This document shows positions 9,063 to 61,996 of a DNA stretch of 64,000 nt, piece after piece. Within the stretch, counting starts at the first letter, position 1, and each line of letters begins with the position of its first letter. This DNA comes from Cytophagales bacterium (GTDB taxonomy: Bacteria > Bacteroidota > Bacteroidia > Cytophagales > Spirosomataceae): assembly GCA_013298125.1 (NCBI GenBank), contig JAAFJP010000005.1, positions 1 to 64,000 of the forward strand, written 5' to 3'. The translations under genes were made by a program, and so were the position numbers. Under the pieces are notes generated by a model. The model saw only the letters and a list, made by a program, of their open reading frames with translations, was not told the DNA's origin and did not search any database.

Positions 9063-9160
9063 ATTTGTTGAATTGCTAAGCTTTGAGTAATATCAACATA
9101 GTGCAACTTTACGCTAATGAAAATGCAGGAACAACCAGATAACAGCAAGTTACCAAAGGA

Positions 9161-9314
9161 CTCATTACACTGTTTAATAAGTTTTCGTTCATAAAATTCA
9201 GAACACGATTTTGAGGATTTATATGATTGTCATTCCCAATCCTGTTTAATCAAATTAATCACTATAATCGTATTCTAAAACAGTACACGAAAACTTATTA
9301 AACAGTGTACTCAT
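9161..9314. mobile_element. MITE-like element, copy 1, with CTCAT target duplication
   Basis: The 144-bp unit at 9166-9309 is bounded by perfect 23-bp inverted ends (9166-9188 and 9287-9309), starting TACACTGTTTAATAAG. It is flanked on both sides by CTCAT (9161-9165 and 9310-9314), which looks like a 5-bp target-site duplication. Further in, AGAACACGAT is matched by an inverted ATCGTATTCT, so most of the element folds into one long hairpin. There is no coding capacity, so it would depend on a transposase elsewhere. Confidence 0.85.
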
Positions 9315-9463
9315 TACACTGTTTAATAAGTTTTCGTTCATAAAATTCAGAACACGATTTTGAGGATTTATATGATTGTCATTCCCAATCCTGTTTAATC
9401 AAATTAATCACTATAATCGTGTTCTAAAAAAGTACACGAAAACTTATTAAACAGTGTACTCAT
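9310..9463. mobile_element. MITE-like element, copy 2, in direct tandem with copy 1
   Basis: The second 144-bp unit at 9315-9458 shares the CTCAT at 9310-9314 with copy 1 and is followed by a third CTCAT (9459-9463). The period is 149 bp, element plus target duplication. Copies 1 and 2 differ by only two bases near the right end (ATCGTATTCTAAAACAG versus ATCGTGTTCTAAAAAAG), implying a recent duplication. Confidence 0.85.
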
Positions 9464-23598: not shown

Positions 23599-23880
23599 CT
23601 ACCGCATCAAAGTCATACTCCGCACAAATTCCTTTCCATTCGACAACCTCACAATGTAGAAATACGTGCCGTCTGGTAAGCCTGTTTTGCCCGTTGGGTT
23701 AATGCCTTGGTTGGCGGTTCCGTCCCAATCATTTTGGTATTCTTCTTGGGCGTAAACCAATCCTCCCCAACGGTTATAGATTTGCAGATTGATGGTTAAA
23801 GCCTTGTCTGTCAAGTCGATAACGAATAAATCATTGATGCCATCACCGTTTGGCGAGAAGCCTTCTGGAATGAAAACTTC
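23599..23880 (-). other. CHU_C / type B T9SS sorting domain of the giant protein
   Basis: The last 94 residues read EVFIPEGFSPNGDGINDLF, then NLQIYNRWGGLVYAQ, NDWDGTANQG, LPDGTYFYIVRL, ending in VRSMTLMR. FSPNGDGIND and YNRWG are the hallmark of the gliding-motility-associated C-terminal (type B) domain, which targets proteins to the type IX translocon and is not always cleaved. Confidence 0.97.
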
Positions 23881-26800
23881 CTTCGGTTCTTCTCTCGGTT
23901 TCTGTACGTTCAATACCCTAATTGGCGTTGGTTTCGAGTCGTCCGTTGGGTCGTTATTGCCGTCTGGATTGATGTCCATGCCATTGTTTGAAACGTCTTG
24001 CACCACTATTTTTCCAGCCTTCGCTACCGCAAGGGCGGAGTTATAGAAGGTATCGACTCGGGCATTGGTAAAATCAACTCTGACCCTAATCTGAATGCCT
24101 TTGATTTTGCCTTTTTTCAAGGCACTCAACGTGTCTATCAATAGCTGATTTTGGTCTCTGCCGTTGTATTTTGGATTAATCGCCAAGCCTTCATCGCCTT
24201 TTACGGATAAGACATTCACAATTTTTGCACCCTTGTTCGTAAATACATCATCCAGATTATCAAGCACTTGCAGTTGTTCAAAGTCGGCATTGCCCAGATT
24301 GACTACTCGCAAATTATAGGTAATGTCAAACACTTTTTCCGAAATCCTGATGGGCGTTTCGGCTTCTTTGCAAAGGGCAATTTGTGGTTTTTCAACGGTC
24401 AAAGTGCTGTCTTTTTTACAGTCCGAAACGATGAAATATGCCGCCGATGATGATTCGGATTTGCAAGTATTCATCTCACAAATTGCCGTAAATTGGTATT
24501 GCGTTTTGGTTGGTTTTACCAAAATAGTTTGCCCAATTTGCCCATCCGACCACGTTACTTTTCCGTTCTCGCAACCGTGTGCTTTCAAGACTTCCGACTC
24601 GCCCAAACATAGGCGTTCACGTCCGCAAGTGATATAGATTTTGTCGATTCCGACTTTCACCGTAACCTCATTCGAGCGTGGACTTTTACAATTTCCTTCT
24701 TGACAAATTGCTGTATATGAAGTAGTTACGTTGATTTTATCCGACATCGTTACGCCCATTTTTCCATTCGACCATATCACCATGCCTTTACAACCCGACG
24801 ACACCAAGGTTACGGAATCGCCCGCACAAATTTGTTTTTGGTTGGTGCTAATCACGGGTGCGGATGGCGAGCTTACTGTCAATTTAACCTCTTTCGATAC
24901 CTGACTCACGCAGGTACTCGATTGTACGCAAGTGGCGGTATAAACGACATTGCCCGTTGGACTCACCGTGATAGAATTGCCCTTTTGTCCGTCCGACCAC
25001 AGCACTTCGCCCGTGCATCCCAAGGCGGTCAAAATGACTGATTCTGAACAACTTAGCTCGGCTTTCGAGGCGATGATGTTTGGTGCGGTTTTGTCGCATG
25101 GCAATTTTGCACGAACTACGCAACTGGCTTCATCGTCTTCTGAACCTTCAAATTTGCCATTGCCTGGGGTCGAATCTGGGTCTGGTTGGTCGGATTTCGA
25201 GACTTGGGCTTTGTTTACTAAACTGCCCGCCTTCGTTACCAAAACCTTATACCCAAACACCGCAATACCGCCTTTTTCGATGCTCGCTGCCTTGAAAGTG
25301 ATGAGATTTCCGACCAAAGTTCCGTTGTTCGATTCCACCAATTGCAAGCCATCGGGCAGTAAATCTGACACCTCAACGTTGGTCGCTTCCGATGGTCCAG
25401 CGTTGTTCACCTGCACCATGTATAGGAGCGTATCGCCGACGGTTACGTCCGTATGATTCACGATTTTATTCAAACTCAAATCCGCTTGCTGACCAATGAG
25501 CGTAACCACTCCGACATCATCCTGACCGTCTTCTGTGCCTGTATTTGGCTGAGAATCAGGGTCATACTGACGAGTATCGAATATTTCGGCTTTATTCGTA
25601 ATCAATCCTCCTTTCAATACTCGTGCTTTGAAAGTCAAATCCACGTAGGTATTTGGTTGAATGATTGGGATAATTTTACTCAAAATTCCTTCGCTCGGAT
25701 TGTAGAAATCTATCTTTTCGCTCAATGCTAATTCCTTCGGTAAATAATCTTTTACGATGGTATTTCTCGCTAATTCTGGTCCTGCGTTGCGTACTCTGAG
25801 GGTGAAGGTTACATCGCTGCCTACATTTGGTTTATTTGTTGAAACAAATTTCTCTAAACTCAAATCCGCTCCACGACCATTCACCGTTACAGAATCCGTA
25901 TCGTCTTCTCCATCTTCTGTGCCTGAATTTGGACAAGAATCTGGGTCGAATTGGTCAGATTTTGTGATTTCAACTTTGTTGGTTATCGGCTTTCGGCTTT
26001 CGGCTGTCGGCAAGATTTTCGCTGTGAAAGTTAATTTCTCTTTCTTGTAAACTCCTACCGAATCCAATTTTACAATCAAACTTCTTGACGTTTCGTTGTA
26101 GTCAAAATCGTTTGAAGAGATGAATTTTAAGCCTTCTGGTAAAATATCTCTTACGTGAATATTCGTGCCTGTGCTTGGTCCATCGTTGCTAACGGTTACC
26201 GTAAACGTTACGTTCTGTCCGATGTTTGCTTTCCATGGAGACACGTCCTTTCTGATACTCAAATCGGCTGTTCCTGCATTGATGGTTACGCTTACTTCGT
26301 CGTCTTCGTCATTATCCGTTCCGTTATTTGGTTTTGAATCTGGGTCGAATTGGTCGGATTCGATTATTTGGGCGTGGTTGGTCAGCCCCCCAGCCCCCAG
26401 AGGGGGAGTTTTTATCACTTGAACTTTGAAAACCCAAGCAATTGATTTACCATTTGGAATACTATCTATTGAGAGTATTAATTTTCCTTTATTATTAATT
26501 ATATCATCCGAGTAAATAATACCGTCCGAAACTCCCCCTCTGGGGGGTAGGGGGCTACTTTCCACGAATTTCAAACCCGTTGGAAGTATGTCTTGCACCT
26601 TCACATTGGTTGCTGTGATTGGTCCAGAATTTTTCACGATGATAGTGTAAGTAACTGATTCACCAGCTTTTACGTTGTATTTATCAACCTTTTTCTTCAA
26701 ACTCAAATCCGCAGATTGGATGCAAACGCTCACGGAATCTGTATCGTCTTCACGAATATTTACGCCATTTCCTACCTTAGAATCTGGGTCAAACTCTGAT

Positions 26801-29800
26801 GCTTTCCAGATTTCTGCCTTGTTGGTCAGTACGCATTTTTCGGCAAAACGATTCACCAAAGCCGTATATTCTATCGTTACGGAGTCGTCAGGGGCAATAA
26901 TTGCAATTGGCGTTGGATTTCGCAAGACGTTTTTCACCGATTTCAAATCATAACTTTCGAGCATCGTCAAACCCGCTGGCAAATAATCTTGCACCTGTAC
27001 ATTGGTCGCTTCGTCTGGTCCCGCATTTCTGATGGTCAGTTTGTAGGTCAGCGTATCGCCTAAGTTTGGTTTCAAATTATCAACTGTTTTACGCAAACTC
27101 AAATCTGCCTGTTTTCCGTTGATTATCACGCTTGCTTCATCGTCTTCGCCTTTATCCGTTCCGTTTCCGTGAGGAGAATCTGGGTCAAATTGGTCGGCTT
27201 TCGAGATTTCCGCTTTGTTGATAATAGCACTATTTGAGGTTACACGAGCAATAAAATCAACCGATTGAGAAGTCCCTGCGGCAATGGCTGGGATTTTAGC
27301 AATCAGCGTTGAACCTGTTGCTTTGAAGTCTGAACTACTTACAAAAGTCAATCCCGAAGGCAAAATATCTTTCACCTCCACATTGTTCGCCATGGCTGGT
27401 CCTGCATTGTAAACCGTCAAGGTATAAGTAACCGTTTGCCCTTTCAATGGTGAACGATTCGAGACGTTTTTCTTCAAACTCAAATCCGAAATTTGAGGCA
27501 TGATGGCAAAATATCCAGCATCATCCTGACCATCTGCCGTGCCTGTATTCGGTTGAGAATCAGGGTCAAACTGGTCAGATTTCGTAATTTCAGCACGGTT
27601 AATAATCGTATTAGCCACTTCTTCACCGCCTACACTTGTGATTTTTACTTTGAATTTTAATTTAACAGAACTACCTACTTTAATCGAATCAATCGTTCTT
27701 GAAACAGCCGTTCCGTTCAATAGAGTAAAATCGGTACCGGCAGGCGTTCCTGTACTCAAAAACTGAATTCCTTTTGGTAAAATATCACTCACTTGTACAC
27801 GGGTTGCGATGCCCGGTCCTGCGTTGCGTACTTCCAATACATACGAAATTGTGTCACCTACATTTGGCGTGCTGGCGTAACCGTCCACTCCCTTGATGAG
27901 GCTCAAATCCGCTTGGTCGCCGTTGAGCATCGCACAGGCTTCGTCGTCTTCACCGTTTCCAGTTCCATTCCCAACTTGTGAATCTGGGTCTGATTGATCG
28001 GCTTTGAAGATTTCTGCACAGTTCATTATCATGCCTTTGTCTTTCACTTTGGCAATGAAAATCAAGGTATCCGCTTTATTTGGGGCGATTTTCAAGATTT
28101 TACGAGAAATCAAAGCCGAGCCTGTCATCGTGAAATCGGTACTTGCTACAAAGCCCAAACCTGCTGGCAAGACATCACGAATCACTACATTGGTGGCGGT
28201 GTCTGCCCCTGCATTTCTGACAATCAATTTGTACGTTACCTGTTCGCCCAAATTGGCGTTTGGTTTATTGACCAATTTTATCAAACTTAAATCAGACGAT
28301 TTTCCTCCGATGCTTACTGAATCCTTATTGTTTTTAAGATTCGGGTCGAATTGGTCGCTCTTGGTTATTTCGACTTTGTTAGAAATTGTTGAAGTTTGAT
28401 TTGTTGAATTGTTGAGTTTTGCAACCACACTCAAAATCTTAGTTTCTCCTAACTTAATCGAATCAATTTTTGCTGTTAAAATTGTTCCTGACAAACTGAA
28501 ATCTTTACTATTTACAAACGTCAAACCTTCTGGTAAATAATCTTTTACCTCAACATTCGTAGCCGTGTTTGGTCCATTGTTTTTCACCGCAATCGTGTAC
28601 GTGACATTCTCGCCTACATTTGGTTTACGATTTGAAACGGTTTTCTTGATTTCCAAATCCGCTGACTCCCCTCCTATCGTTGCCGTTGCTTCATCATCTT
28701 CGCCTTTTCCAACTCCATTTCCAACTTGTGAATCTGGGTCGAATTGGTCGCTCTTCGTGATTTCGGCTTTGTTTACGATACTTCCACCCGCTAAAATTTT
28801 GGCAGTGTAAGTAAACGATTTGCTATCTCCTGTATTCAATCTTCCGATTTTCAAAGTCAAAGTATCTTTTGAAATCGTGAAGTCGTTACTACGAACATTT
28901 CCTAAACCTTTTGGCAAATAATCTTTCACCTCAACATTAGTCGCATTGTCGTTTCCGTCATTCGTTACGGTTATCGTATAAGTTACTTCCGAACCAATTG
29001 AAGCCGTTGGATTTGATACCGTTTTCTTCAAACTTAAATCAGAAATCGGTACACTAATCGTGGCTCTACTTTGGTCGTCTTGACTGTCTTCTGTTCCTGT
29101 ATTTAGTTGAGAATCAGGGTCGAATTGGTCAGATTTTGTAATTTCCGCACGGTTGGTAATTGTTGAGTTGTTGAGTTGTTGAGTTGTTGAGTTGTTAAAG
29201 AAATCCTTTGTTACCATTGCAACAACTGTTAAGCTAACTGTCTGATTTACATTGATTTGATTAATATTTTTACCTATTAATAAACTATCACTTGCTTTCA
29301 CGAAGTCTGGGGACGAAACGAAAATTAAACCTTTTGGTAAATAATCTTTCACCTGTACGTTAGTCGCAATGCTTGGTCCTGCGTTGGAGACTTTCATCGT
29401 GAATGTTGTTGTTTTTCCAACATTAACAAATTGGTCGGCAACAGTTTTTACCAAGCTCAAATCTGCCTGTTCACCGCCCACAGTTACCCTTGCATTATCA
29501 TCTTCACCGTCTTCTGTACCTGTATTTGGTTTAGAATTTGGGTCATAAACATCCGATTTTACAATTTCGGCTTTGTTTGTAATCATGCCTTCTTTCACGA
29601 CACGGGCGATAAATCTTAACGTGTCTGCCTTGTTTGGAGCAACGGTTATTGCTTTACTTGTCAAGACTACATCATTCGACATTGTAAAGTCATTACTTGA
29701 TATAAATTCCAATCCCGCAGGTAAAACATCCTTCACGACCACACGAGTTGCGGAGTCTGGACCTGCATTTTTTACGACCAATTTGAAGGTAATATTCGTA

Positions 29801-32800
29801 CCAATATTTGTCGTTTTACGGTCTGATAATTTTTGCAAACTCAAATCTGCAATTCTTGGTTTCACCGTCTCAGAATCGGTATCATCCTGACCATCTTTTG
29901 TACCTGTATTCGGTTGAGAATCAGGGTCGTATTGGTCAGATTTTGTAATTTCTGCACGGTTGGTAAATGCTGCCGAACCACTTACCAGAGCTTTGTAAGT
30001 CAAAATAACGGTTGAATCTTTGCCAATTCTACGGATTTGACCGTAAAGCGTACTGCCCAAATCATCGAAATTATCGCTTTGGATAAAGGTCAATTCTTTT
30101 GGTAATTTGTCTTTTACCTCCACATTCGTAGCCGCATCTGGACCAGCGTTATGCACTGATATTGAGTACGTTAGCGTATCACCCACGTTAGGGCGTTTAT
30201 TAGAAACTGACTTTATCAAACTCAAATCCGCTTGTTCTCCATTGATTAAAACACCCGCTTCATCGTCCTCACCTTTACCCGTTCCGTTGCCGTGTGGCGA
30301 ATCTGGGTCGAACTGGTCGGCTTTTGAAATTTCGGCTTTATTCGTCAATGCCCCTGGGGTCAAAACCTTCACTTTGAAACTTACCGAACGGCTCGTTCCT
30401 GCATTGATTAATGGAATCAAATTGCGTAAAGTATCACCCGATTTTGTCCAACCAGAACCCGAAACGTATTGCAAGCCCAATGGTAAAATATCCTTGACTT
30501 CCACGTTGGTTGCGTTGCTCGCTCCGTCGTTGGTTACGGTCAAAGTATAATCAATCTCTTCATTGATTTTTGGTTTACGATTCGAGGCAGTTTTTGCCAA
30601 ACTCAAATCAGCATATTGGATTTTTATCTCCGCATCATCCGTATCATCCTGACCATCTCCGTAACCCGTATTTGGTTGAGAATCAGCATCATACTGGTCA
30701 GATTTAATCACTTCGGCAAAGTTTTTCACGGATGAACCACGAGCCATTGCTAAGGCTGTCACTCGATTTCTCACTAATAAAGTTACCGTAGTATTTGCCT
30801 TAATTTCTGGAATAATTTTGCTAATTAACGTACTATCATTCGCCATTGTCCAGTCATTAGCATTTGGAATAAATTGTAATCCTCTTGGCAAATAATCTTG
30901 TACTTGAACATTGGTCGCCGTTGAAATTCCACTATTTTTGACTTTGATAGAATAGGTTATCACATCGCCCACATTTGGTACGGCATTATCCACATCTTTG
31001 GTCAAACTCAAATCGGCAGATTGCCCTCCAATCGTTACGGAAGCCTCATCGTCTTCGCCATTTTGCAAGCCATTATTTGGCTCAGAATCTGGGTCGAGTT
31101 GGTCAGATTTTGAGATTTCAGCACGGTTTGTAATTAGCCCCCCGACCCCCAGAAGGGGAGAAAGACGTGCGAAAAACTTCAAAGTATCGGTGCTAATTAT
31201 AGCTCCCCCACTGGGGGCGGGGGGGGCTATTTTAGCAATATTTTTACTTAACAGAACCCCATTATTATTCGAGAAATCATTGCTTGAAACGAAATCTAAG
31301 CCCGTTGGAAGAATGTCTCTAACCTGTACGTTGGTCGCAAAATCAGGACCATTATTCATCACAACTAACTTATATTCAAAGACTTGCCCGATTTGTGGAG
31401 CTTGATTTGAAACCAATTTCCGTAAGCTCAAATCCGCTACTCGTACTCGTACCTGAGCGTTGTCCGTATCGTCTTCGCCATTATCCGTTCCGTTGTTGGG
31501 TTGCGAATCTGGGTCGGGCGTGTCAGAGTCCGTAATCTCGGCTTTGTTCACGAAATAAACGGGCAGTAAATTATTCGATGCCACATTTTCCAAAACCGTC
31601 TTTTTGATTTTTGCCGTGAACGTTAATTTAACGGTTGAATCCTTTTTGACGTTGAAAATGGTTGCCGATAAAGTCCCTGCCGAGTTAGAGAAATATTTAC
31701 TCGAAATAAATTCTATACCCGTTGGTAAGTAATCTTTTACGGTAAATTGTCCGACGGCATCAGGTCCTGAATTTCTAACAGCAATCGTATAAGTAACTGT
31801 TTGTAAAGAAGTTACAACAGAATCTGAAACGGTTTTGGTCAAACTCAAATCGGCAGAACGTCCGAATGTACTGACTTCGGCACGGTCATCTTCGGCATTA
31901 TTCGTACCATTACCCACCTTAGAATCAGGGTCGAATTGGTCGGATTTAGCAATCTCTGCCGTGTTCAACACATTACCTGCTTGGGTGATTTTAGCAACAA
32001 ACGAAAGCGTGCGAGAAGTACCTGCCGCCAAAGACGGAATCGTACCAATCAACGTGCCGTTATTGTTCACAAAATCTGTCGGATTTACCAACTCTAAACC
32101 TTGTGGCAAAATGTCTTTTACTTCCACATTCGTAGCTGTCGAAGGTCCTGCATTACTCACCGTCAAGCGATACGTTACGATTGAACCTTTCGTTACAGAA
32201 GTTGCTCCGTCCAAGGTTTTCTTCAAACTCAAATCCGCCAGTTGGATGTTGATAACGGCATCATCGGTATCATCCTGACCGTCTTCTGTTCCACTGTTTG
32301 GATTAGAATCTGGGTCGTAGAGGTCGCTTTTTGTAATTTGAGCGACATTTCTAATAGTTGTTGGCTGTTGGCTGTTAGCTATTGGCGAAAGGACTCTTGC
32401 TGTGAAAATTAGTGTTTTTGTTTCCTTTATTCCGATGCTACCAAACTGTGCTGATAGAATATTTCCAACTTTTGAAAAATCCCCTACCGATACAATTTCT
32501 AAACCGTTTGGCAATACATCTTGTACCTCAACATTGGTCGCAATGTTTGGTCCTGCGTTGGAAACTTTGATGGTATAAGTTACCACATCGCCTACGTTTG
32601 GATTAGTATTATCTACCCCTTTTATCAAACTCAAATCCGCTTCTTGACCGTTCAGCGTTACGCCTCCTGTATCATCCTGACCGTCTGATGTACCTGTATT
32701 TGGTTGAGAATCAGGGTCGTAGGTTTCAGATTTCAATACTTCGGCTTTGTTCACCAATGACACAGGTTGGGAAACCTGTGCTACGAATGATAACGCTATG

Positions 32801-35800
32801 CTATCGCCATTGGCTATTGTTGGAATGGTTTTACTTAGTAAATTTCCATCTCCTAACAGACTGAAATCTGAGCTACTAATAAACTCCAAACCAGTTGGCA
32901 TATAATCTTTTGCCTGAACATTTTGAGCCGCATCTGGTCCTGAGTTTTTGACGTAAATCGTGAATGTAACGTTGCTTCCAACACTTGGCGTGCGGTTTGA
33001 AACAGTTTTTCTTAAACTCAAATCTGCCGCTTTTTGCGTGGTAATTATCACCGAATCACGGTTATTTTTTGGCTCTGGGTCGAACTGGTCAGATATTACG
33101 ATGATACCCGTATTTTGGATTGAACCTGATTTCGTAATCTTCGCAATGACCGTGAGTGTCTGCGTAGTTCCAACTCCCAAGCTACCGATTCCTGCCGTGA
33201 TTTTTCCGTTAGTATTGATAAATCCTGTTCCCGAAACAAACGATAAACTACTTGGTAATGAATCACTTACGACTACATTGGTCGCTAAACTTGGTCCGTT
33301 ATTTTTTACCGTAATCGTGTAAGTAATGTTATCCCCAACATTATAAGGTCCTGCCGAAACTGCCTTTTTGATTGACAAGTCAGATGCCTGTGTCGTGAAG
33401 CTTACACCATCTGTATCGTCCTCACCGTTTTCTGTTCCGTTGTTTGGAGAAGAATCTGGGTCGAATTGGTCGGCTTTACTAATCTCGGCTTTGTTAATTA
33501 TTGAAAGTTGAATTGTTGAATTGTTGATGTTTTTCGCTAAAAACATTAGAGCAACTACTTGACCTACTTTTACTGAATCAACTTTTCCAATTAATGTTCC
33601 ACTTACGTTTAAGAAATTGGGACTACTCACAAATTGTAAACCCGCTGGTAAAACATCTTTCACCTCAACATTAGTCGCTACGTTTGGTCCTGCATTGCTT
33701 ACTTTGATGGTGTAAGTAACGATTTCACCTAAATTTGGGGAGGTATTCGAGATATTTTTCTGCAAACTCAAATCCGCTTGTTGTCCGTTCAAAATCACTC
33801 GACCAATATCATCTTGACCGTCTTCTGTTCCTGTATTTGGTTGAGAATCAGGGTCAAATTGGTCTGAGGTGATGATTTCGGCTTTGTTTGTGATTGAGCC
33901 TGATTTGGTGATTTTTGCTAAGAATGATAATTTCGCCGTGCCATTTGGAGCAATCGAAGCGATGTTTTTAGAAATCAATGCTCCACTATTATCAGCAAAA
34001 TCTAAGGCATTTACCAACTCTAAACCGATAGGCAAAATATCTTTCACCTTCACATTCGTAGCCGTGTCAGGTCCAATATTCGTAACCGTCATCGTGAAAG
34101 TTACTACATCGCCCACGTTGGCTGTCGGATTACTAACCGTTTTCGCCAAACTCAAATCTGCCACTTGCGAACCGATGGTTACACGGTCTTGGTCGTCTTC
34201 GCCATTTTCTGTTCCGTTATTTGGTTTAGAATCTGGATCGAATTGGTCGGATTTTGAAATTTCAGCTTTATTGGCTATCGGCAATCGGCTGTCGGCTGTC
34301 GGCGAAATCTTAGCTACCAAAGTAAACGTTTTTGTTTGGTTCGCTTTGATGGTATCGGCTTTTGCCGTTAAGATTGTTCCTTGTTGGATGAAGTCATTAC
34401 TACTTACAAAAGTTAATCCCGCTGGTAAATAATCTTTTACCTCCACATTCGTAGCGGTTGATGGTCCTGCGTTGGAAACGGTTATCGTATAAGTGAAGTT
34501 TTCACCTACATTTGGCTTCTGATTCGAGACGGTTTTCTTCAAACTTAAATCCGCTTGGTTCACCACAACTCTTACGCTATCGGTATCATCTTCACCGTTT
34601 TGTGTTCCGTTATTTACCTGAGAATCAGTATCATACTGGTCAGATTTAGAGATTTGGGCTTTGTTGATTTTCTCGCCCGTCTCCGTAATTCTTGCTCTGA
34701 AAGTTACCGTTTGAGAACCGCCTACTGCCACCGTTGGAATGTTTGCCAACAAGGTATCTGAATTAAATTTGAAGTCTTTTGAACTTACAAAAATGATTCC
34801 CGAAGGCAAAATATCTTTCACCTGTACGTTAGTCGCAAGGTCTGGACCCGCATTGGCAACCGTGATGCTGTACGTTACTTCATCGCCCACATTGATTACT
34901 GGTTTATCAACGGTTTTGCGTAAACTCAAATCGGCAGTTTGTGGTACGATGGTGATTTTGTCGGTATCGTTTTGACCGTCTTCTGTCCCTGAATTTGGTT
35001 TAGAATTAGGGTCAAACTGGTCTGATTTCGTGATTTGAGCTTTATTTGTGTAGGCTGTCGGCTGTTGGCTGTTGGCTGTTGGCGATTGCACTTTTGCAGT
35101 ATAAATCAAATCCACAGTCTGATTGACTAATATGCTGTCAATATTTGCCGTTAAAGTATCGCCACTTTTTTGTAAGATATTTGATGAAATAAATAACAAA
35201 CCATTCGGCAAAATATCCTTCACCTGTACCTTAGTCGCCTTGCTTGGTCCTGCGTTGTTCACTCGTAGCGTATAGGTAATGACATCACCCACGTTCGGAC
35301 GCTGATTTGAGACTAATTTCTTCAAACTCAAATCCGCTTGCTGACCGCTTAATGTTACTGCACCCACATCATCTTGACCATCTTCCGTACCTGTATTTGG
35401 TTGAGAATCAGAATCATACGTATCAGATTTTACGATTTCGGCTTTGTTAGTGATTCTTCCAGATTGTGTAATTTTTGCTTTGAAAGTCAATACTTCTGGC
35501 GTGCCTTTTACAACGATTGGAAGCGTTTTACTTAATAAAATATTGCCTCCTGAAAGTGTAAAATCGCCTGAACTTACAAACTCTAAACCAGTGGGTAAAA
35601 TGTCATTCACTTGTACGTTGGTCGCAATATCTCCACCGTCATTATTGACAGTTAAACTGAAAGTTACGATATCGCCCACATTGGCACTTGCATTACTTAC
35701 CGCTTTCATCAAACTCAAATCCGCCTGACGAACTCTCACCGTTACTGAATCCTTATCATTGGTCTTGATTGGGTCTGGAATTTGTGGCGAAATTAGCTGT

Positions 35801-47800: not shown

Positions 47801-50800
47801 AAACTTGCGATTTGACTTGTCAATGTACTTCCTGATAATTGGAAATCACTTGAACTTACGAATTGTAAACCTGCTGGCAATACGTCTTTTACTTCAATAT
47901 TCGTTGCTGTACTTGGTCCTGCGTTGCTTACATTTATCGTGTAAATAATGTTATCCCCAACGTTTGGAGACGTGTTATTTACCGTTTTCGTTAAACTCAA
48001 ATCCGCTTGTTGTCCTCCAATCAAAACCCCTCCTGTATCATCCTGACCGTCTTCTGTGCCTGTATTGGGCTGAGAATCATTATCGAATTGGTCACTTTTT
48101 GAGACTTCGGCTTTGTTTAAGATTGCTCCTGCTTGTGTTACTCTGGCTACGAAACTTAAACTTCTTGTTGCTCCTAACGGAATATTCGCAATAGTACCTG
48201 TTAATGTTCCAGAGTTGTTGATTAAATCACTTGAAGAAACAAACTGTAAACCTGCTGGCAATACGTCTTTTACTTCAACATTGGTCGCTGTATTTGGACC
48301 TTCGTTGGTTACAGAAATCGTGTATGTTATCGTTTCGCCAACCGTTGGATTAGTTTTAGAAACTGTTTTCAATAAACTTAAATCTGCAATTTGAGGAGTC
48401 AAAACGGCATCGTCTGTATCATCCTGACCGTCTTCTGTGCCTGTACCAACCTGTGAATCTGGGTCGAATTGGTCGGATTTACTTACTTCGGCTTTATTCG
48501 TAATCGTTTGATTTTCAGTTACTTTTGCTATAAAAGTTAATGTTTTGGGATTACCAACTGGAAGATTTAAAACTTGTCCTGTCAATGTTCCATTTGTATT
48601 GATGAAGTCTGAACTTGAAACGAATTGTAATCCCACTGGCAAAATATCTAATATCTCAACATTGGTTGCTGTTGAAGGTCCTGCATTGGTTACGACTATC
48701 GTGTAGGTTACATTATCCCCAACATTTGGGTTTGTGTTTGAAACTGATTTTTGTAAACTCAAATCTGCTTGTTGCCCACCAATCAAGACTCCGCCTGTAT
48801 CATCCTGCCCGTCTTCTGTACCTGTGTTAGGCTGTGAATCTGGGTCATAAACATCTGATTTTGAAACTTCTGCCTTGTTTAAAATCGCTCCGCTTTGGGT
48901 AACTCTGACTTGGAAAGTTAAGTTTACTTCTCCTCCTGCCGTTACGCTTGCGATGTTGTTTGACAACAATAGTCCAGAAGTGTTGGTAAAATCAGTTGAT
49001 GAAACAAATTGTAATCCCGTTGGTAAAACGTCCTTCACCTGAACATTGGTCGCATTGTCTGGTCCTGCATTCTTGACTTTTATCGTATAAGTAATCGTCT
49101 CGCCTACGTTTGGATTGGTTTTAGACACTAATTTCTCTAAACTTAAATCCGCTATTCTTGGCGTAACCCTTACAGAATCCGTATCATCTTGACCGTCTTG
49201 TGTACCTGTATTAGGCTGACTGTCTGGATCGAATTGGTCAGATTTACTGATTTCCGCTTTATTCGTAATTGATTGATTACCTGTTACTTTTGCTACAAAA
49301 GTGAGTGATTTATTGCCTACTGGCAAACTCGCAATTTGACTGGTCAAAGTGCTGCCTGATAATTGGAAATCACTTGATGAAATAAATTGTAAACCTACTG
49401 GCAATACGTCTTTTACTTCAACATTAGTAGCCGTTGAAGGTCCTGCGTTTGATACATTTATGGTGTAAATAATTTGGTCACCTACGTTTGGAGAGGTGTT
49501 ATTTACCGTTTTAGTTAAGCTCAAATCCGCTTGTTGTCCACCGATTAGAACCCCTCCTGTATCATCCTGACCGTCTTCTGTGCCTGTATTCGGCTGACTG
49601 TCATTATCGAATTGGTCACTTTTTGAGACTTCGGCTTTGTTTAGGATTGGGCTTGATATTAATACTTTTGCAATGAATGAAAAAGTTTTTGTTCCTCCAA
49701 TTGGGATGGCTAATGCTGTGCCTGTTAATGTTCCTGCATTATTTGTCAAATCAATACTACTCACAAATTGTAAACCCGCTGGTAATACGTCTTTTACCTC
49801 AACATTGGTCGCAATATCTGGTCCTGCATTGCTTACAGTTATCGTGTAAGTTACATTGGTATTTACGCTTGGAGCGGTGTTTGAAACGGCTTTTGTCAAA
49901 CTTAAATCCGCTGATTTTGGGGTAATTGCAGCATCATCCGTATCGTCTTGACCATCCGTTACGCCTGTATTCGGTTGAGAATCTGGGTCGAATTGGTCGG
50001 CTTTTGAAATTTCTGCACTATTTGTAATAAGCTGATTACCAGTAACTTTTGCAATGAAAGTTAAAATTTTAGGCGTTCCTACGGCAATACTTGAAATCGT
50101 TGAAATCAATGTTCCAGAAGTATTTGTAAAATCACTTGAACTCACAAATTGCAAGCCTGCTGGTAAAATATCTTGCACCTCTACATTGGTTGCCGTGCTT
50201 GGTCCTGCGTTGTTTACCGTAATCGTATAAGTGATATTGTCTCCTACATTTGGTGCGGCAGGCGTTCCTGTGACGTTTGAAACTGATTTTGTCAAACTCA
50301 AATCTGCCTGTTGTCCGTTCAAAGAAACCGCTCCAACATCATCCTGACCGTCATTTACGCCTGTATTTGGTTGAGAATCTGGGTCAAATTGGTCTGATTT
50401 TGTTATCTCCACTTTATTCGTAATCGTTCCAGAAGCGGTAATTTTTGCCTTAAATTTCAAGGTCGTTGAACCGTTTACTGGAATATTGGCGATGTTATTT
50501 GAAGTTAAAACTCCCGAAGTATTTGTAAAATCTATACTACTGACAAATTGCAAACCTACTGGCAAAACATCTTGCACTTGGACATTGCTCGCCGCATCTG
50601 TTCCTGCATTATTTACCAACAACGTAAACTCTACAACATCCCCTACGTTGGCGTTAGCGTTGCTCACAAATTTTTGCAAACTCAAATCCGCCACACGCAC
50701 CCGCACACTCGTAGAATCTGTATCATCTTCACCATTCAAAATACCATTATTGGGCGATGAATCTGGGTCTGGGACGCTATTGAAAGCGATTTCGGCGTTG

Positions 50801-53800
50801 TTTGTAATCTTTCCAGTACCCGTAACTTTCGCCAAAAACTTGAAGGTCTGAGACTGATTTACACCCAGATTTGATACTTGTCCTGTCAATGTCCCTCCCG
50901 CATTTGCTAAGGTTGATGAGCTTACAAATTGTAATCCCGAAGGCAAAACGTCTCTGATACTTGCCGTTGAAACTGCACTTGGTCCTGCATTAGTTATCAC
51001 AATCGTAAACTCCACATTTTCATTCGGATTCACGACTGATTTATTGACCGTTTTTATCAAACTCAAATCCGCTAAATTTCCGCCAACCGTTATTTGGTCG
51101 GTATCATCTTGTCCGTCTGTCGTTCCTGTATTTGGTTGAGAATCAATATCATACTGATCAGATTTCGTAATTTGGGCAGCATTAGTAATGTTTCCTGCTT
51201 GGTTTAAAGTTGCTGTGAAAGTAAAATTTTGCGTAACTCCCACCGCCAAACTTGGAATCGTGGCGGTCAATGTTCCTGCATTATTCGTAAAATTTCCTGC
51301 ATTAACCAACGTCAAACCTGCTGGGAGAACGTCTTTCACCTCCACATTCGTAGCCGTCGAGGGTCCTGCATTACTTACCTGAATCGTGTAAGTAATGACA
51401 TCGCCCACATTTGCCGACAATGGATTGGCTAATTTCTTCAAACTCAAATCTGCAACCTGTGGCGTAAGCGGGGCATCATCTGTATCATCCTGACCGTCTT
51501 CCGTACCTGTATTCACCTGAGAATCAGGGTCAAACTGGTCAGATTTTGAAATTTCAGCTTTATTATTTATCGCACTCGAAGCGGTTACTTTTGCTCTAAA
51601 TGTCAATGTTTTTGGCGTACCAACTGCCACCGTTAAATTCGATGCGGTCAATGTTCCTGCTGTATTTACAAAATCCGTACTGCCAATAAATTGCAACCCA
51701 AAAGGCAAAATATCTTTCACCTCCACGCCCGTAGCCGTGGATGGTCCTGCATTGGAAACGGTGATGGTATAATCAATTTCTTCACCCACATTTGGTGCGG
51801 CAGGCGTTCCTGTTGAATTACTCACCGATTTTTGCAAACTTAAATCCGCTTGCTGTCCTCCGATTAAAACTCCGCCCGTATCATCTTGTCCATCTGACGT
51901 TCCTGTATTTGGTTGAGAATCAATATCATACGTATCAGATTTACTTACTTCTGCCTTATTCAAAATCGCTCCTGCTTGCGTAACTTTTGCTACGAAAGTC
52001 AGGTTAATAATGCCATTGGCAGAAATCGTTGGGATATTATTTGAGAATAAAACGCCCGAAGTATTTGTAAAATCCGTTGAACTTACAAATTGTAAACCTG
52101 CTGGTAATACGTCTTTTACTTCTACATTGGTCGCTGCATCTGGACCATCATTTTTGACTGAAATCGTGTAAGTAATATTTTCCCCAACGTTTGGATTCGT
52201 TTTAGAAACCGTTTTCGTTAAACTTAAATCCGCAGTTTTAGGGGTTAGAGGTACTCCGCCTGTATCATCCTGACCGTCTTCTGTACCTGTATTGGGTTGA
52301 GAATCTGGATCGAATTGGTCGGATTTACTAATCTCCGCTTTATTGGTAATTAATTGATTTCCAGCAACTTTTGCTACGAAAGTTAGCGTTTTTGTACCTA
52401 CTGGCAAACTCGCAATTTGTCCTAATAATGTTCCTGAAAGGTTTGTAAAATCGGTTGAACTTACAAATTGTAAACCTGCTGGCAATACATCTTTTACTTC
52501 CACATTGGTAGCCGTACTTGGTCCTGAATTGGTTACTACAATCGTGTAGGTTACGTTATCTCCCACATTTGGTGCGGCAGGCGTTCCTGTTGTGTTTGAA
52601 ACGGCTTTCGTCAAGCTCAAATCTGCTTGTTGTCCACCAATCAAAACGCCTCCTGTATCGTCCTGACCGTCATTTGTGCCTGTGTTGGGTTGAGAATCTG
52701 GGTCAAATTGGTCGGATTTACTCACCTCCGCTTTATTCAAAATAGCACTTGAATTCAATACTCTCGCAACGAAAGTAAATGATTTTGTTGCCCCAACCGC
52801 AACAGTTTGTGTTGTGCCTGTGAGTGTTCCTGTATTGTTCGTTAAGTCAGTTGAACTTACAAATTGTAAACCTGCTGGCAATACATCTTTTACCTCAACA
52901 TTGGTGGCAATATCAGGTCCTGCGTTGGTTACGTTTATTGTATAAGTTACATTTGAATTAACGTTTGGAGTTGTGTTTGAAACGGCTTTTGTCAAACTTA
53001 AATCCGCAGATTTTGGTGTGATAATGACATTTCCTGTATCATCTTGACCGTCTTCTGTACCTGTATTTGGTTGAGAATCTGGGTCGAATTGGTCGGCTTT
53101 TGAAATTTCGGCTTTATTGGCTATTGGCTGTTGGCTATCGGCTGTCGGCAATACCTTGGCGATAAAGGTTAATATCTTTGGTGTTCCAACGGCTACTGTT
53201 AATGGCGTTGTATTTGTTAATGTTCCAGAAGTATTTGTAAAATCTGTTGATGAAATAAATTGTAATCCCGCAGGTAACACATCACGAACTTCTACGCCAG
53301 TTGCGGTGCTTGGTCCTGCATTGTTTACCGTGATGGTATAAGTTACATTATCCCCCACATTTGGCGTGCTGTTTGAAACTGCTTTGGTCAAGCTCAGATC
53401 AGCTTGTTGTCCACCAATTAAAACCCCGCCTGTATCATCCTGACCGTCATTTGTGCCTGTATTTGGTTGAGAATCAGGGTCAAATTGGTCGGAAGCTGAA
53501 ACTTCTGCTTTATTCAAAATACTGCCTGCTTGTGTAACGGTTGCTACGAATTTTAAAACCACATTACCGCCCGAAGTTATCGAAGCGATGTTGTTTGAAA
53601 TTAATGTTCCAGAGGTATTCACGAAGTCTGTTGAACTTACAAAAGTTAATCCTGCTGGTAAAATATCTTTGACCTTTACGTTGGTCGCATTGTCACCGCC
53701 TTTGTTGGTTACGGTAATTGTGTAAGTGATATTCTCACCCACATTTGGATTGGTTTTGGAAACTGTTTTAACCAGTTCCAAATCTGCTTCCCGAACTCTA

Positions 53801-56800
53801 ATAGGTTCATTATCAGTATCATCTTCTCCATTGTCTGTTCCGTTATTTGGGGTTGAATCTGAATCTGGCACATCGCTACTCGCAATTTGTGCCTTGTTAA
53901 TTATGGTGCCTGTACCCGTCACTTTCGCTTGAAAAGTAAAGGCGGTTGAGGTATTTGGTTGTAGGTTCGTAAACGTTCCTACCAACGTTCCTGCATTGTT
54001 TGTGAGCGTTGAAGAGCTTACAAATTCCAATCCCGAAGGCAAAGCATCCGAGATTGTTCCAGTCGTTACAGAATTTGGTCCTGCATTAGAAACCGTTATC
54101 GTAAACGTGACAATTTCATTCGGATTCACGACAGATTTATCAACCGTTTTCACCAAACTCAAATCCGCTAATTTTCCTGCAATCGTGATATTATCGGTAT
54201 CATCTTGTCCGTCCGTTGTGCCTGTATTTGGTTGAGAATCAGGGTCGTACTGGTCAGATTTTGTAATCTCTACCGAGTTTTTTAATGCTCCTGCTTGGGT
54301 AACTTTTGCTTTGTAAGTCAAGGTTTGAGACGTTCCCGAAGCAATAGTCAAACCGCTTGCCGTGAGTGTTTGTCCAGAGGCGGTGAAGTCCACGCTTGAA
54401 ACAAATTGTAGTCCCGTTGGCAATAAATCTTTCACCTCCACATTGGTAGCGGTGTTCAAACCTGCATTGTTTACGGTGATACTATACGTAATTTCATCTC
54501 CTACATTTACCGATAATTTACTCGCATTTTTAGTCAATGATAAATCGGCAGTTTGAATCGTCAAAGGTGCATCATCGGTATCATCTTGACCGTCCGAAGT
54601 TCCTGTATTTGGTTGAGAATCAGGGTCAAATTGGTTGGATGATTTGATTTCTGCCTTGTTATTAATTAGCCCCCCAACCCCCAGAGGGGGAGTGTTCGGC
54701 GAATTAGCTCCCCCACTGGGGGCGGGGGGTGCTATTTTTGCGGTAAATGTTAATGTTACTGGCGTTCCAACATTGACTGTTAAAGGCGTTGTATTGGTTA
54801 ATGTTCCTAATGTGTTTGTCAAAGTTGAACTGCTCACAAATTGTAGTCCCGCTGGTAAAATATCTTGAATCGTTACGCCCGTTGCTGTTGAAGGTCCTGC
54901 GTTGGAAACGGTGATGGTATAAACTACATTATCACCAACATTTGGATTCGTATTTGAAACTGATTTTTGTAAACTCAAATCCGCTTGTTGTCCACCAATC
55001 AAAACGCCTCCTGTATCATCCTGACCGTCTTCTGTTCCTGTATCTGGTTGAGAATCAGGGTCATATTGGTCAGATTTACTCACTTCGGCTTTGTTTAAAA
55101 TACTTCCCGCTTGGGTTACGGTTGCTACAAAAGTGAGAGCAACCGACCCATTGGCAGGAATTGAGGCGATGTTAGTTGATAATAATGTTCCTGATGTGTT
55201 TGTGAAATTTCCTGACGAAACAAAGCTCAAACCTGCTGGCAAAACGTCCTTTACCTGCACATTCGTAGCTGGTGATGGTCCAGCATTTGAAACCGTAATT
55301 GTGTATGTAATATTTTCACCCACATTCGGATTCGTTTTTGAAACCGTTTTCACCAAACTCAAATCGGCTTGTTGGGCGTTAATGTCCACTGAACCTCTGT
55401 CGTCTTCGGTGTTTCCAGTTCCGTTTCCATGTGGAGAATCCAAGTCTGGTTGGTCAGCGTTTGAGACCTCGGCGGCATTGGTTGTTAATCCTGCCGACAA
55501 AACTTTGGCTACAAAAGTTACTGATACTGAACCATTTACGGCAATACTTGAAATCGTTCCTGTCAATGTTCCTGCAACATTTGTTAAGCTCGCTGAACTC
55601 ACAAATTGTAAACCCGCTGGCAAAACGTCCTTCACCTCCACATTCGTAGCGGTGTTTGGTCCTGCATTGGTTACGGTGATGGTGTAGGTTATTGTTTCAC
55701 CAACATTTGGATTCGTTTTTGAAACTGTTTTCGTCAAACTCAAATCCGCCTGATTCTGAATCGTTACGGGCGTTGGCGTGCTTCCTGCGGGCGTTGGGTC
55801 GTTTCCGTTATTTGAAATATCCGTAGTATTTCCACCCGTAGTCCCTGTGGCTGAGGCAGTTACGTTATTCAAGAAAGTATTACTTCCTGTATAACCATTC
55901 AATTTTATGTTTACTGTAAATTGATACGAATTACTCTGATTTAACAACAAAGAACCCGTACCCGTCAGAAGATTTTGACCCGTTGGCGTTCCTAAAAATC
56001 CTGTGTTAATATCGCTCGCCCCTGTTTTAGAAATAACCGTATAAACAATCGGTGAAGGAAAGGTAGTTGCCAGATTTTCAGTCACTTGCACATTATTCAG
56101 CACCACATTTCCGAAGTTTTTTACCACAACCTGATACGTCACATTATAACTTCCATCGGGTTGCAGAGCAATTGAATTTATCGTAGTTTTTGACGATCCA
56201 ACTACTGGATTCGCAATCGTTACAGGAGTTGGCGTATTTTCACCATTATCTCCCGCAAAACCATTAGAATTTGGGTCGATGGCAGCTTCATTTCCATTAT
56301 TTGACAAATCCGAAACGCTCTGTCCCGAAGGGTTTGTCGCCGTTGCCGATACCTGATTATTGAAAACGGATTGCGTAGAACCATTCATCGTCAAACGAAC
56401 GGTGAAGGTAATCGTGCGAGATTGTCCAGGGGTCAAAATTGAGGCATTGGCAGAACTGGCAACCAGCAAACGAGTCTCCGTAGTGCCATTAAAAGCGGTT
56501 TCTGCCAATAATGGGGCTAAGGTTTGCGAGCCTTGCGAAATCGTAAAAGTGGTTGGTGATGGAAAAGTAGTCGTCAAATCGTCACGCACTTGCACGCCCG
56601 AAAGATTGACATTGCCAATATTTTTAACGGTAACTGTATAAGGAATATCATAAACGCCATCCGAAATTTTCACGGGCGTTCCTGCCGATTTTGCCACACC
56701 AATATTACCGTTTACGATGCTTACAGGCGTAGGAGTATCTTCGCCAAATTCCCTTGGATTTCCGTTGTTATTGGGGTCAATCGCATTCGCTCCACCGTTG

Positions 56801-59800
56801 TTTGAAACGTCCGCAATTGAACTCACTGAACCACTCGGATTGGTTGCTCCTGCCGTAGCGGAGTTGTTGAAAAGTGTCTGTGTCGAACCATTCAGATTGA
56901 CTCTGACCGTAAAAGTGATGGTCTGACTCGCACCAATGGCTAAGGTTGAAGAAGCTGAGGTTAATAAATTTTGGTTCGTATTTCCGTTAAATAAAGTATT
57001 GGCGGTTAAAGGCAAACTCGTTGAATTTGAGACAATTGAGTACGTTATCGGACTTGGAAAAGTAGCATTGAGATTCTCTACAACCTGCACATTCGACAAG
57101 GCTACATTGCCCAAGTTTTTCACCGTAACCGTATATGGCACATCATAAACGCCATTCGTCACCAAGACTGGATTGGTCGCTGATTTTGCAACCCCAATCA
57201 CTGGATTATCGTTACAACTCACATTGGCAGTGGTAGAATTGATACAACCCGTTGCGGCATCTTTAATCGTAATCGTGTAAGCTCCATTTGCTAAATTATT
57301 AAAGGTGTTTGTGTTTTGAAATGCTCCTGAATTTAAAGCATAATTCAATGTTCCACCCGTTGGATTAGTCGCTCCCGCAACCGTGATTACGCCCGTACCT
57401 GCACCACCCACACACGAAGGTGTAGCGGATGAAAGCGTAGGTTTTGGACGAACTGTTACCGTCATTTCATCGAACGAAGTACAATTTCCAGATGCTCCAA
57501 TAGTCCAACGATATTTATAAGTCCCTGCCAGTAAACCAGTTACGGTTGTATTTGGAGAATTTACATTCGTAATTACCTCTGGACTTCCCGAAGGACCAGC
57601 GACTTTTGTCCAAGTTCCAGTTCCTACGGCTGGCGTGTTTCCGTTCAAGGTCAAAGTTGAACCTTCGCAAATCGTCTGACTTGCTCCTGCCGTTGCGGGC
57701 GTTGGGGCGGCTACGATATTTACCGTAACTTCATCAAAAGAAGTTTGGCAATCGTTCGGAGAATTTACGCCCGTTGAAACCGTCCAACGGAAAACATATT
57801 GCCCTAAATCCGTTCCTAAAACTTGTGAAGTGGCAGAATTTGGGGATAAAAATGTGACGTTCGGATTGGCGGAAGGCTTGGAAATTTGCGTCCAAGTTCC
57901 CGTTCCTGCCGTTGGTAAAGTAGCGTTGAGATTGATGGGCGAAAACTGACAAACGATTTGGTCAACCCCTGCATTGGCGGTACTCGGCACAGCTAAGTTC
58001 TTGACAATCACCGTATCACGAGAAATACAAGCCCCCGAAGTTATCGTCCAAATGTATTTATAAGTTCCAGAAGTTAAGCTCAAAGCCGTCGTTGCGGGTG
58101 CTGTTCCTGATGCAGGAGAAAACACCGAAAACGGCGAATCAGGTGTCTTTGACCAAGCACCTGTACCAACCGTTGGCGTATTTCCAAAAATATTCGTTGC
58201 CGTTCCGTTACAAATCGTTTGGTCAGCTCCTGCGTTGGCAGTTGTTGGGGCGGGGTCAGGCACATTTATTGTTACATCATCCGTCGAAACCGCACACGAA
58301 CCATTTGAAATTGTCCATCTAAAAACATAGCTTCCTGCCGCATCAATTCCTGTAATATCAGTCGTTGCAACTTGTGGATTTAAAATCGTTGGCGTTGGTA
58401 AGGTGGCAGGTGTTTTTGAAATCAAAGTCCACATTCCTTGCCCAACGGTTGGCACATTACCCGTCATTTTTACGGTCGGCGGACAAACCGTTTTATCCAC
58501 TCCTGCATTCGCTACGGTAGGAATTTGGAAATATTCAATCCGCACTTCATCGCCAATAACACACGTCCCATTCGTGATTGTCCATTTCAAAACATACAGC
58601 CCATATTTATTAGTCGAACCAATATTTAAAGTTGCATTGGGCGATGTGGCATTTGATAAAGTGGCGTTAGAAGTATTAGTTGGTTGAGCTAAAATCGTCC
58701 AAAGCCCCGTTTGTCCCGCAGGTACTGGATTTGGTTGAATATCATTGCCACTATTCAGATTTATTGCCGTTCCCGAAGTTTCACAAATCTGTTTGTCCAA
58801 ACCTGCATTGGGCGTACTTCCCGCCGCCGAGACATTCAAAACCACTTGGTCAGCCGTCGGATTTGGGCAAGAAGTCGCATTCGGATTTTTAACAATCGTA
58901 TAAGCAAAAACATATTGTCCAGTCGTCAAACCAGTTACCACCGCATCACTCGAAGGTGAAGAAGTGGGCGTAATTGTCTGAGTGCCAGGACCAGAAATCT
59001 TCGTCCATGTTCCCGAAGAACCATTTCCTGCCAATAAAGTAGAGTTACTCAAACAAACATTTTGGTCAGCTCCTGCATTCGAGGCTTCTTGTACAAAAAC
59101 ATCAATATCATCCGTAGTCGTAGGGCAATTTGTTCCGCCCGTAACCGTCCATCTAAATTTATAATTACCTTGTTTTAAGTTACTTACAGTTGTTGTGGGA
59201 GAAGAATTTGAAGAAAAACTAACCTGCGAAGGAGCATTACCCACAATCGACCATGTGCCTGTACTGACTGAATTTATCGGGTCAGCTACCAACGTTGCAC
59301 TTGAATTACTTGGACAAATCGTTTGATTTGCCACCGCAATATTTGCCGTTGAAACAGGTTCAGAAACTTTCACAGTTACATCCGCCTGAGAGCCATTCGT
59401 ACAAACGCCATTGGCAATCGTCCATCTGAAAACATAATCACCCGCAACCAATGAAGTTATCGTTGAATTAGGCAAATTCACATTCGTAATATTCGCCTGA
59501 GAAGGTCCTGAAACCTGTGTCCAAGTACCAATTCCCGCCCCTGCATTATTGCCCGAAAGTGTCGTGGAAGTACCACACAGAGCCTGAGTTGCTCCTGCCG
59601 TAGCGGTTGGAATATTTGAATTTACCGTAACCACAACGGTATCTCTTGAAATACAAGTTCCGTCCGTTATCGTCCAGACAAATTTATACGTACCAGCCTG
59701 TAAACCAGTCGCTTGTGCATTGGCAGAAGCTGTATTCGGACTAAAATTGGGCGTTGGATTAGCGGAAGGTTTACTCCCCAAAGACCACGACCCCGTATTC

Positions 59801-61965: not shown

Positions 61966-61996
61966 GGCGGTGATTTTCAGCGTTTTAAGCAATTAT

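Follow-up and report, generated by a model that had tools for sequence, protein, structure and literature searches.

The window (the whole 64-kb stretch of DNA analysed) carries on its minus strand a single reading frame (23599..61992) with zero internal stops, confirming the uninterrupted frame described in the first-pass annotation. From its ATG to the stop (23599..61965) the gene encodes a protein of 12,788 aa, with a mass of 1,332.6 kDa and a pI of 4.4; a start at the in-frame TTG upstream (61992) would lengthen it by 9 aa, to 12,797 aa. Because 3,674 of the 12,798 codons lie one substitution away from a stop and none is a stop, the open frame is not a product of chance. The protein can fairly be ranked with the largest known in bacteria, as first claimed, but it is no record, as bacterial proteins longer than 12,788 aa exist. 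Directly downstream lies a gene for a papain-family protease with a laminin-G-type lectin domain (21653-23209, minus strand), and two tandem 149-bp units (98% matching) occupy an intergenic position at 9160-9463; searches of the 64-kb window against Rfam gave zero matches at gathering scores. The same genome (G000, a 5.85 Mb draft in 72 contigs) holds another giant open frame, 11,690 aa long (G000:C34, L025 6386 to L027 1455, minus strand), with Ig_7 and SdrD_B modules abundant in the 9,537 aa scanned.

From N to C terminus, the giant protein comprises a putative signal peptide, 16 PKD/Ig modules, an SprB-like module, three DUF7507 modules, 79 DUF11 modules, three weakly matching Ig_7-like modules, a fourth DUF7507-like stretch and a type B sorting domain of the type IX secretion system (T9SS), all encoded on the minus strand. 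The hydrophobic N terminus, read by eye, contains a putative signal peptide of about 41 aa that ends ...FPMVLQAQ (61843..61965), hence with the residues LQAQ. The PKD/Ig-like modules (57451..61840), likely the distal part of the fibre, number 16 by recurrence (15 by pattern and one divergent module by eye), in agreement with the earlier count, whereas the Pfam family K319L-like_PKD matches the protein in only 10 separate stretches. The module at 57208..57447, read by eye, is presumably an SprB-type repeat, and received no name from any family search of the giant protein. The three modules at 55750..57204, previously taken as CARDB/DUF11-like, are indeed present but belong to DUF7507 (CLIPPER_2; Pfam, 54.5 bits). 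The DUF11 array itself (25102..55749, modules of 119-148 aa) was recovered by PF01345 at exactly the number counted before: the genome holds 96 DUF11 matches, 81 of them in the giant frame, and 79 of these form the regular array, all above 24.6 bits, with the two remaining matches weak (28.9 and 23.1 bits against a cut-off of 24.6) and within the DUF7507 region. The three Cys-containing Ig-like modules (24418..25101) match Ig_7 only below its cut-off (22.2 versus 27.3 bits). The type B C-terminal domain (23602..23871) is confirmed by both CHU_C (87.6 bits, cut-off 27) and TIGR04131 (52.1 bits, cut-off 35), and the T9SS translocon domain SprA_N occurs in 8 of 8 Arcicella genomes versus 0 of 14 control genomes. 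Surface proteins with type B T9SS C-terminal domains, such as SprB, are among the closest known systems: they share with the giant protein a TIGR04131/CHU_C C terminus, Ig/PKD-type modules and a T9SS translocon in the genome, but the stalk of the giant protein consists of putative isopeptide domains, and gliding is at most a possible function of it.

The window's genome groups with Arcicella, and was compared with seven other Arcicella genomes (G001-G007). The C-terminal 513 aa of the protein have full-length matches, 70-79% identical, in four of the seven (G001, G003, G005 and G007), and only weaker paralogues in G002, G004 and G006; as the gene is absent from three of the eight genomes, it is dispensable at the genus level. 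The G003 orthologue is complete, with a frame of 10,222 aa and the same domain order, and partial orthologues that run off their contigs extend to at least 6,072 aa (G001), 2,868 aa (G005) and 804 aa (G007). All orthologues seen are in frame. The 59 DUF11 domains of G003 pair in order with domains of the array here, 59 of 59, at identities of 0.71-0.95 (colinearity was imposed on the pairing, which is arbitrary inside the repeat block described below); each domain keeps its identity by position across species. Median dN/dS values are 0.10 for 59 domains compared with G003, 0.115 for 38 with G001 and 0.101 for 18 with G005, all of them rough because dS is near saturation (median pS 0.5-0.6). 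Selection had previously been argued from the lack of stops; that conclusion holds, with the dN/dS medians of 0.10-0.115 as its stronger evidence, and on these comparisons the locus is a selected gene, not an artefact. Across 150 family genomes, 13 match at E ≤ 1e-60; five are Arcicella (the window's genome included) and eight belong to two other genera, in which the matches are confined to the last 245-360 residues (39-47% identity, in frames of 714-768 aa). The giant form is thus seen only in Arcicella among these 150 genomes.

The array appears to have grown internally. Domains 17-37 (41533..49530, minus strand) form a higher-order repeat of four domains that is expanded in comparison with G003: inside the stretch of domains 15-38, domains four apart share 0.84 nucleotide identity, which drops to 0.70 at a distance of one or three domains and to about 0.67 in other parts, and all 20 domains without a G003 partner fall within domains 15-36. 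Such growth would be by unequal exchange of the four-domain unit. Copies four domains apart differ by a dS of 0.39-1.10 (17 pairs), so the expansion is not recent, save for a 437-bp identity between domain 23 (46814..47250) and domain 31 (43766..44202). This 437-bp pair and a further one of 72 bp are the only exact repeats of at least 60 bp in the gene, and the former is the single place where short-read assembly could have misjoined. That the great length is itself an assembly artefact would fit a draft of 72 contigs, the presence of the 437-bp repeat (copies 3,048 bp apart) inside the array, and the ending of the G001, G005 and G007 orthologues at contig ends. It is nevertheless highly improbable, since the G003 frame is complete, the higher-order copies are strongly diverged at the dS values just given, and only one exact repeat has the length to confuse a short-read assembly, which might thereby shift some eight domains but not produce the array. 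We therefore reject a pseudogene or an assembly artefact on the G003 frame, the colinear domains, the dN/dS values and the paucity of exact repeats, and the orthologous 10,222-aa frame with its 59 ordered domains largely answers the chimera concern raised in the first-pass annotation. The earlier interpretation is partly supported overall: its central reading, a single giant surface protein, is borne out as a T9SS protein kept by selection. The points that go beyond it, all read from sequence, are the isopeptide triad, the positional identity of the domains, the higher-order repeat in domains 17-37 and the in-frame dispersed repeats.

DUF11 domains, renamed CLIPPER, are described in the available part of PMC12617251 as cross-linked by an isopeptide bond from Lys to Asn, close to an Asp, with resistance to heat and protease, and as lacking the bond in some members; the work described there is a survey of AlphaFold DB models with one solved Acinetobacter domain. 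Every one of the 79 domains here has the Lys-Asp-Asn triad (the Lys formed part of the splitting pattern, and splitting with the Lys optional gave the same 79), as do 59/59 in G003, 37/40 in G001, 17/18 in G005 and 2/2 in G007. In the four misses (G001 and G005) the pattern failed on neighbouring residues, with the Asp and Asn still visible in the sequence. Across 69 aligned three-domain rows the nine triad positions never vary, and the sole sequence match in the PDB is 9ifr, the structure from PMC12617251. The Lys-Asp spacing is usually 34 here and is 34 in the 9ifr chain as read, or 33 by the residue numbers in the available text of that paper; the Asp-to-Asn spacing ranges from 45 to 71 across domains, the loop being variable in length in many of them. 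These features predict a covalently locked stalk of a 1.33-MDa protein, with 79 self-locking domains. The CLIPPER adhesins described in the accessible part of PMC12617251 are built alike, with a DUF11 triad stalk that has a signal peptide and adhesion-type domains on one side and a sorting domain on the other, whereas the 79 copies, the T9SS anchor and the higher-order repeat are, against that description, the giant protein's own. The giant DUF11 adhesin is thus a new and extreme case of a known adhesin type.

Short dispersed DNA repeats lie in frame within the array. Apart from the domain array, Tandem Repeats Finder, run blind on the window, picked out six short arrays in the gene, and all six end between 2 residues before and 1 residue past the isopeptide Asn; under a uniform spread, allowing 15 residues per domain, the chance of six out of six is about 6e-7. 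Inserts of the heptamer GCCRAYA (minus strand) occur in domains 7 (53117..53149), 39 (40853..40891), 50 (36601..36631), 54 (35049..35083) and 56 (34287..34303), and those of an octamer (TTCAACAA), also on the minus strand, in domains 58 (33512..33527) and 69 (29160..29196), with an octamer-like insert in domain 71 (28375..28419). A third family, PAL, consists of two G+C-rich arms placed head to head around a variable spacer. One PAL, in domain 3 (54668..54731), sits with its two arms together in the loop that precedes the isopeptide Asn; two others are split, the arms lying in separate loops on either side of a native strand in domain 64 (31136..31228, the second arm degenerate) and of native sequence in domain 76 (26384..26556). 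In the split PAL pairs (these two and L065) the arms flank native coding sequence, not the usual spacer. When the arrays, the PAL arms and two more repeats are taken together, the loop before the Asn holds 12 of the 14 mapped features; outside it lie only the first arms of the two split elements, in domains 64 and 76 (two of six PAL arms thus being in other loops). The higher-order block of domains 17-37 contains no recognised insert.

The content of these loops differs between species. At domain 56 the insert reads PTADSRLPIA in the window's genome, while G003 has TNSQLANSQL and G001 has TNSQFTQSQI; where the window's genome has PAL at domain 64, G003 carries TNSQFTNSPI and G005 a short loop of native appearance. 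Judged from sequence counts, the insert family used in the array follows each genome's own repertoire. Raw heptamer matches number 29 in the window's genome (13 in the giant gene) and two each in G003 (both inside the G003 giant gene), G005 and G006, with none in the others; the control, the pattern read backwards, gave 7 in the own genome and 0 elsewhere. The TCAC family gave 79 raw matches in G001, 49 in G002, 37 in G003, 10 in G007, 7 in G005, 2 in G006, 2 here and 1 in G004, many of them belonging to one long array, with controls of 0 or 1. PAL gave at least 108 raw matches here (overlapping; control 0), 62 in G005 and 0-2 in the other six Arcicella, and its pattern matched at least once in 50 of 121 family genomes, some of these being single stray matches. 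G005 is PAL-rich, yet zero PAL were seen in the compared loops of its 18 available domains. The 64-kb window holds 5 heptamer, 2 octamer and 4 PAL loci, compared with 1, 1 and 6, respectively, in 280 kb of the genome outside it.

We considered that all of the dispersed repeats might enter genes, and reject this idea: in G001, 0 of 21 TCAC clusters (20 loci from the head of the list) are internal to a long frame, and outside the giant gene only 2 of 12 fetched GCCRAYA loci are (L040 and L049). It is because these mainly intergenic TCAC and heptamer repeats enter frames exceptionally, and do so there, that we read the loop as permissive ground. Intergenic heptamer repeats (TAACTGA) are described for Beggiatoaceae, cyanobacteria and five Bacteroidetes in the accessible part of PMC4679880; those too are species-specific seven-base repeats that are mainly intergenic, but the unit here differs and is also found in frame within the giant gene.

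Three other accounts of the inserts were weighed against this reading. The heptamer and octamer arrays could be contingency switches kept for phase variation by frame shift, since units of 7 and 8 bases inside a frame are not multiples of three and several such sites lie in a single surface-protein gene. We regard this as unlikely: each array is a short run of some 2 to 5 units with imperfections, the PAL inserts in the same loop are incapable of such slippage, the matching families of the relatives are intergenic (as for the TCAC clusters in G001, 0/21 internal to a long frame) and every orthologue seen is in frame. Replication slippage, a known source of short tandem repeats, might instead have made the inserts in place, with no arrival of dispersed repeats, and the variation in loop length across many domains (Asp-to-Asn 45-71) would agree with that; it is just as improbable an origin, however, for units that are families found elsewhere in the same genome and that change with the species, and slippage cannot make PAL, a two-armed hairpin with dispersed copies. 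The inserts might also be selected, either because they tune loop chemistry or stalk mechanics or because they seed recombination that alters stalk length. Their concentration in one loop type and their recurrence at the same domains in different species speak for such a role, which we nonetheless consider rather doubtful, as domains 17-37 lack a recognised insert, so that inserts are not markers of array expansion, and as unrelated sequences occupy one site among species, as tolerance would also give. The loop as tolerant ground for whatever repeats a genome holds remains our preferred reading.

Elsewhere in the genome, PAL is a palindrome found inside coding genes. It folds as a long hairpin (z scores of -9.27, -10.16 and -5.00 for three elements); a fourth stretch, with one arm only, gave z = -2.32, with 3 of 200 shuffles as good. 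Intact pairs span 55-105 bp between the outer C5/G5 tracts, and pairs are often split. Of 42 clusters listed outside the giant gene, 33 lie in an open frame of at least 200 aa; four of the 33 are 12 residues or fewer from the frame start, where they may sit in a leader, leaving 29 of 42 internal. Among the host frames scanned, 18 of 20 match a known family (NCBIfam 10/10 at 1e-29 or better, Pfam 8/10), although only LeuRS, PheT, methylmalonyl-CoA mutase and a rhamnulose-phosphate-type aldolase pass the curated NCBIfam cut-off, several of the sub-cut-off frames being partial. The hosts include LeuRS, ValRS, PheT, UvrA, methylmalonyl-CoA mutase and cell-wall enzymes. Internal in-frame PAL were also found among the matches listed in G005 (5 of 5 clusters) and in G079, a member of another genus (6 of 14), with 0 of 1 in G060.

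Comparisons of individual hosts indicate how the copies vary. Two complete leuS genes of the genome (L080 on G000:C2 and L081 on G000:C3) are identical at 922 of 964 aligned residues (95.6% protein identity); one PAL is common to both and each has one PAL of its own, at which the partner carries unrelated residues, in one instance, as read, a different small palindrome. Methylmalonyl-CoA mutase was read in six relatives and ValRS in four, all without PAL, and for the mutase a seventh relative appears to lack it from a split match. In one of the four, G003 (valS, L102), the loop that holds PAL in the window's genome contains a short repeat-like NSEQLAVNSNA instead. No target-site duplication or clean empty site for PAL was found in the relatives compared; at its position they have other residues (ETGEG-type in the mutase, 14 unrelated residues in the second leuS), so that insertion with local replacement, or later loss of the flanks, is possible. 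The window's genome and G005 share a PAL site in two genes (L148/L077, in a different reading frame, and L132/L083, alike), which implies that some copies are shared or that sites are hot, and counts against simple recent insertion. Like the REP/RAYT elements described in the available part of PMC3733652, PAL comprises short palindromes in head-to-head pairs; unlike them, it lies mostly inside genes. Mobilisation by a RAYT was looked for at five Y1_Tnp loci of the genome and found no support, with a PAL-type C5..G5 core in 0 of 5 fetched flanks. Two Y1 transposase genes (L118 and L119, on G000:C6 and C4) are flanked by other near-perfect palindromes, as in REP/RAYT.

In-frame protein-coding palindromes are known from Rickettsia and Wolbachia, both intracellular, according to the accessible parts of PMC10969869 and PMC2229807, and in its accessible part the former, a 2024 review, calls a similar process elsewhere only conceivable. 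The Rickettsia palindromic elements (RPE) described in those parts are, as PAL is, dispersed palindromes that lie in frame in unrelated conserved genes, where they add a peptide insert, with further copies between genes. Like RPE, PAL forms a hairpin, has in-frame copies in unrelated conserved genes and, for the two enzymes compared, is absent from the relatives read; against the same descriptions, it differs in its Bacteroidota host, in its G+C-rich arms and in its length of 55-105 bp, which falls short of the roughly 105-150 bp of RPE. By analogy PAL would work like RPE, beside which we set it by mode of occurrence; we do not class it as one, because the length differs and the likeness drawn is one of behaviour. 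We found no report of an in-frame palindrome system in Bacteroidota in the open-access literature searched. On balance we favour the view that in Arcicella and related Bacteroidota RPE-like palindromes have spread into housekeeping genes as translated surface-loop peptides, with the giant adhesin as their most permissive site.

Taken as a whole, the locus quite probably encodes a T9SS-exported fibrillar adhesin with a CLIPPER stalk, in which the loop before the Asn hosts dispersed repeats in frame. This account draws on what the sequence itself shows: the frame, the purifying selection, the conserved triad, the expansion, the match of insert family to genome and the loop position of the inserts. 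Export would run through the type IX secretion system, and the type B C-terminal domain would tether the protein to the cell, leaving the PKD/Ig part outermost. Each of the 79 CLIPPER modules is predicted to close a Lys-Asn isopeptide bond with the Asp as helper, and a stalk of modules locked in this way should therefore be rigid and should withstand both proteases and unfolding. The permissive spot would be the loop immediately ahead of that Asn, where the host's dispersed DNA repeats land in frame and survive, presumably under neutral tolerance, because the loop is, as we propose, exposed at the surface and can vary in length without upsetting the triad.

If this is correct, each of the 79 loops can take whichever dispersed repeat the genome has, so that the stalk records the genome's repeat history and may diversify its surface through repeat inserts. 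With 79 predicted self-locking domains in its stalk, a 1.33-MDa T9SS protein is extreme both as an export substrate and as a subject for single-molecule mechanics, and raises the question of whether the isopeptide bonds would form before or after the outer membrane is crossed. The host is a free-living freshwater bacterium, presumably cultivable, and has PAL in tRNA synthetases, UvrA and cell-wall enzymes, which would make the spread and the cost of such elements measurable, and the two leuS genes that differ in their PAL inserts offer a natural pair for dating insertions.
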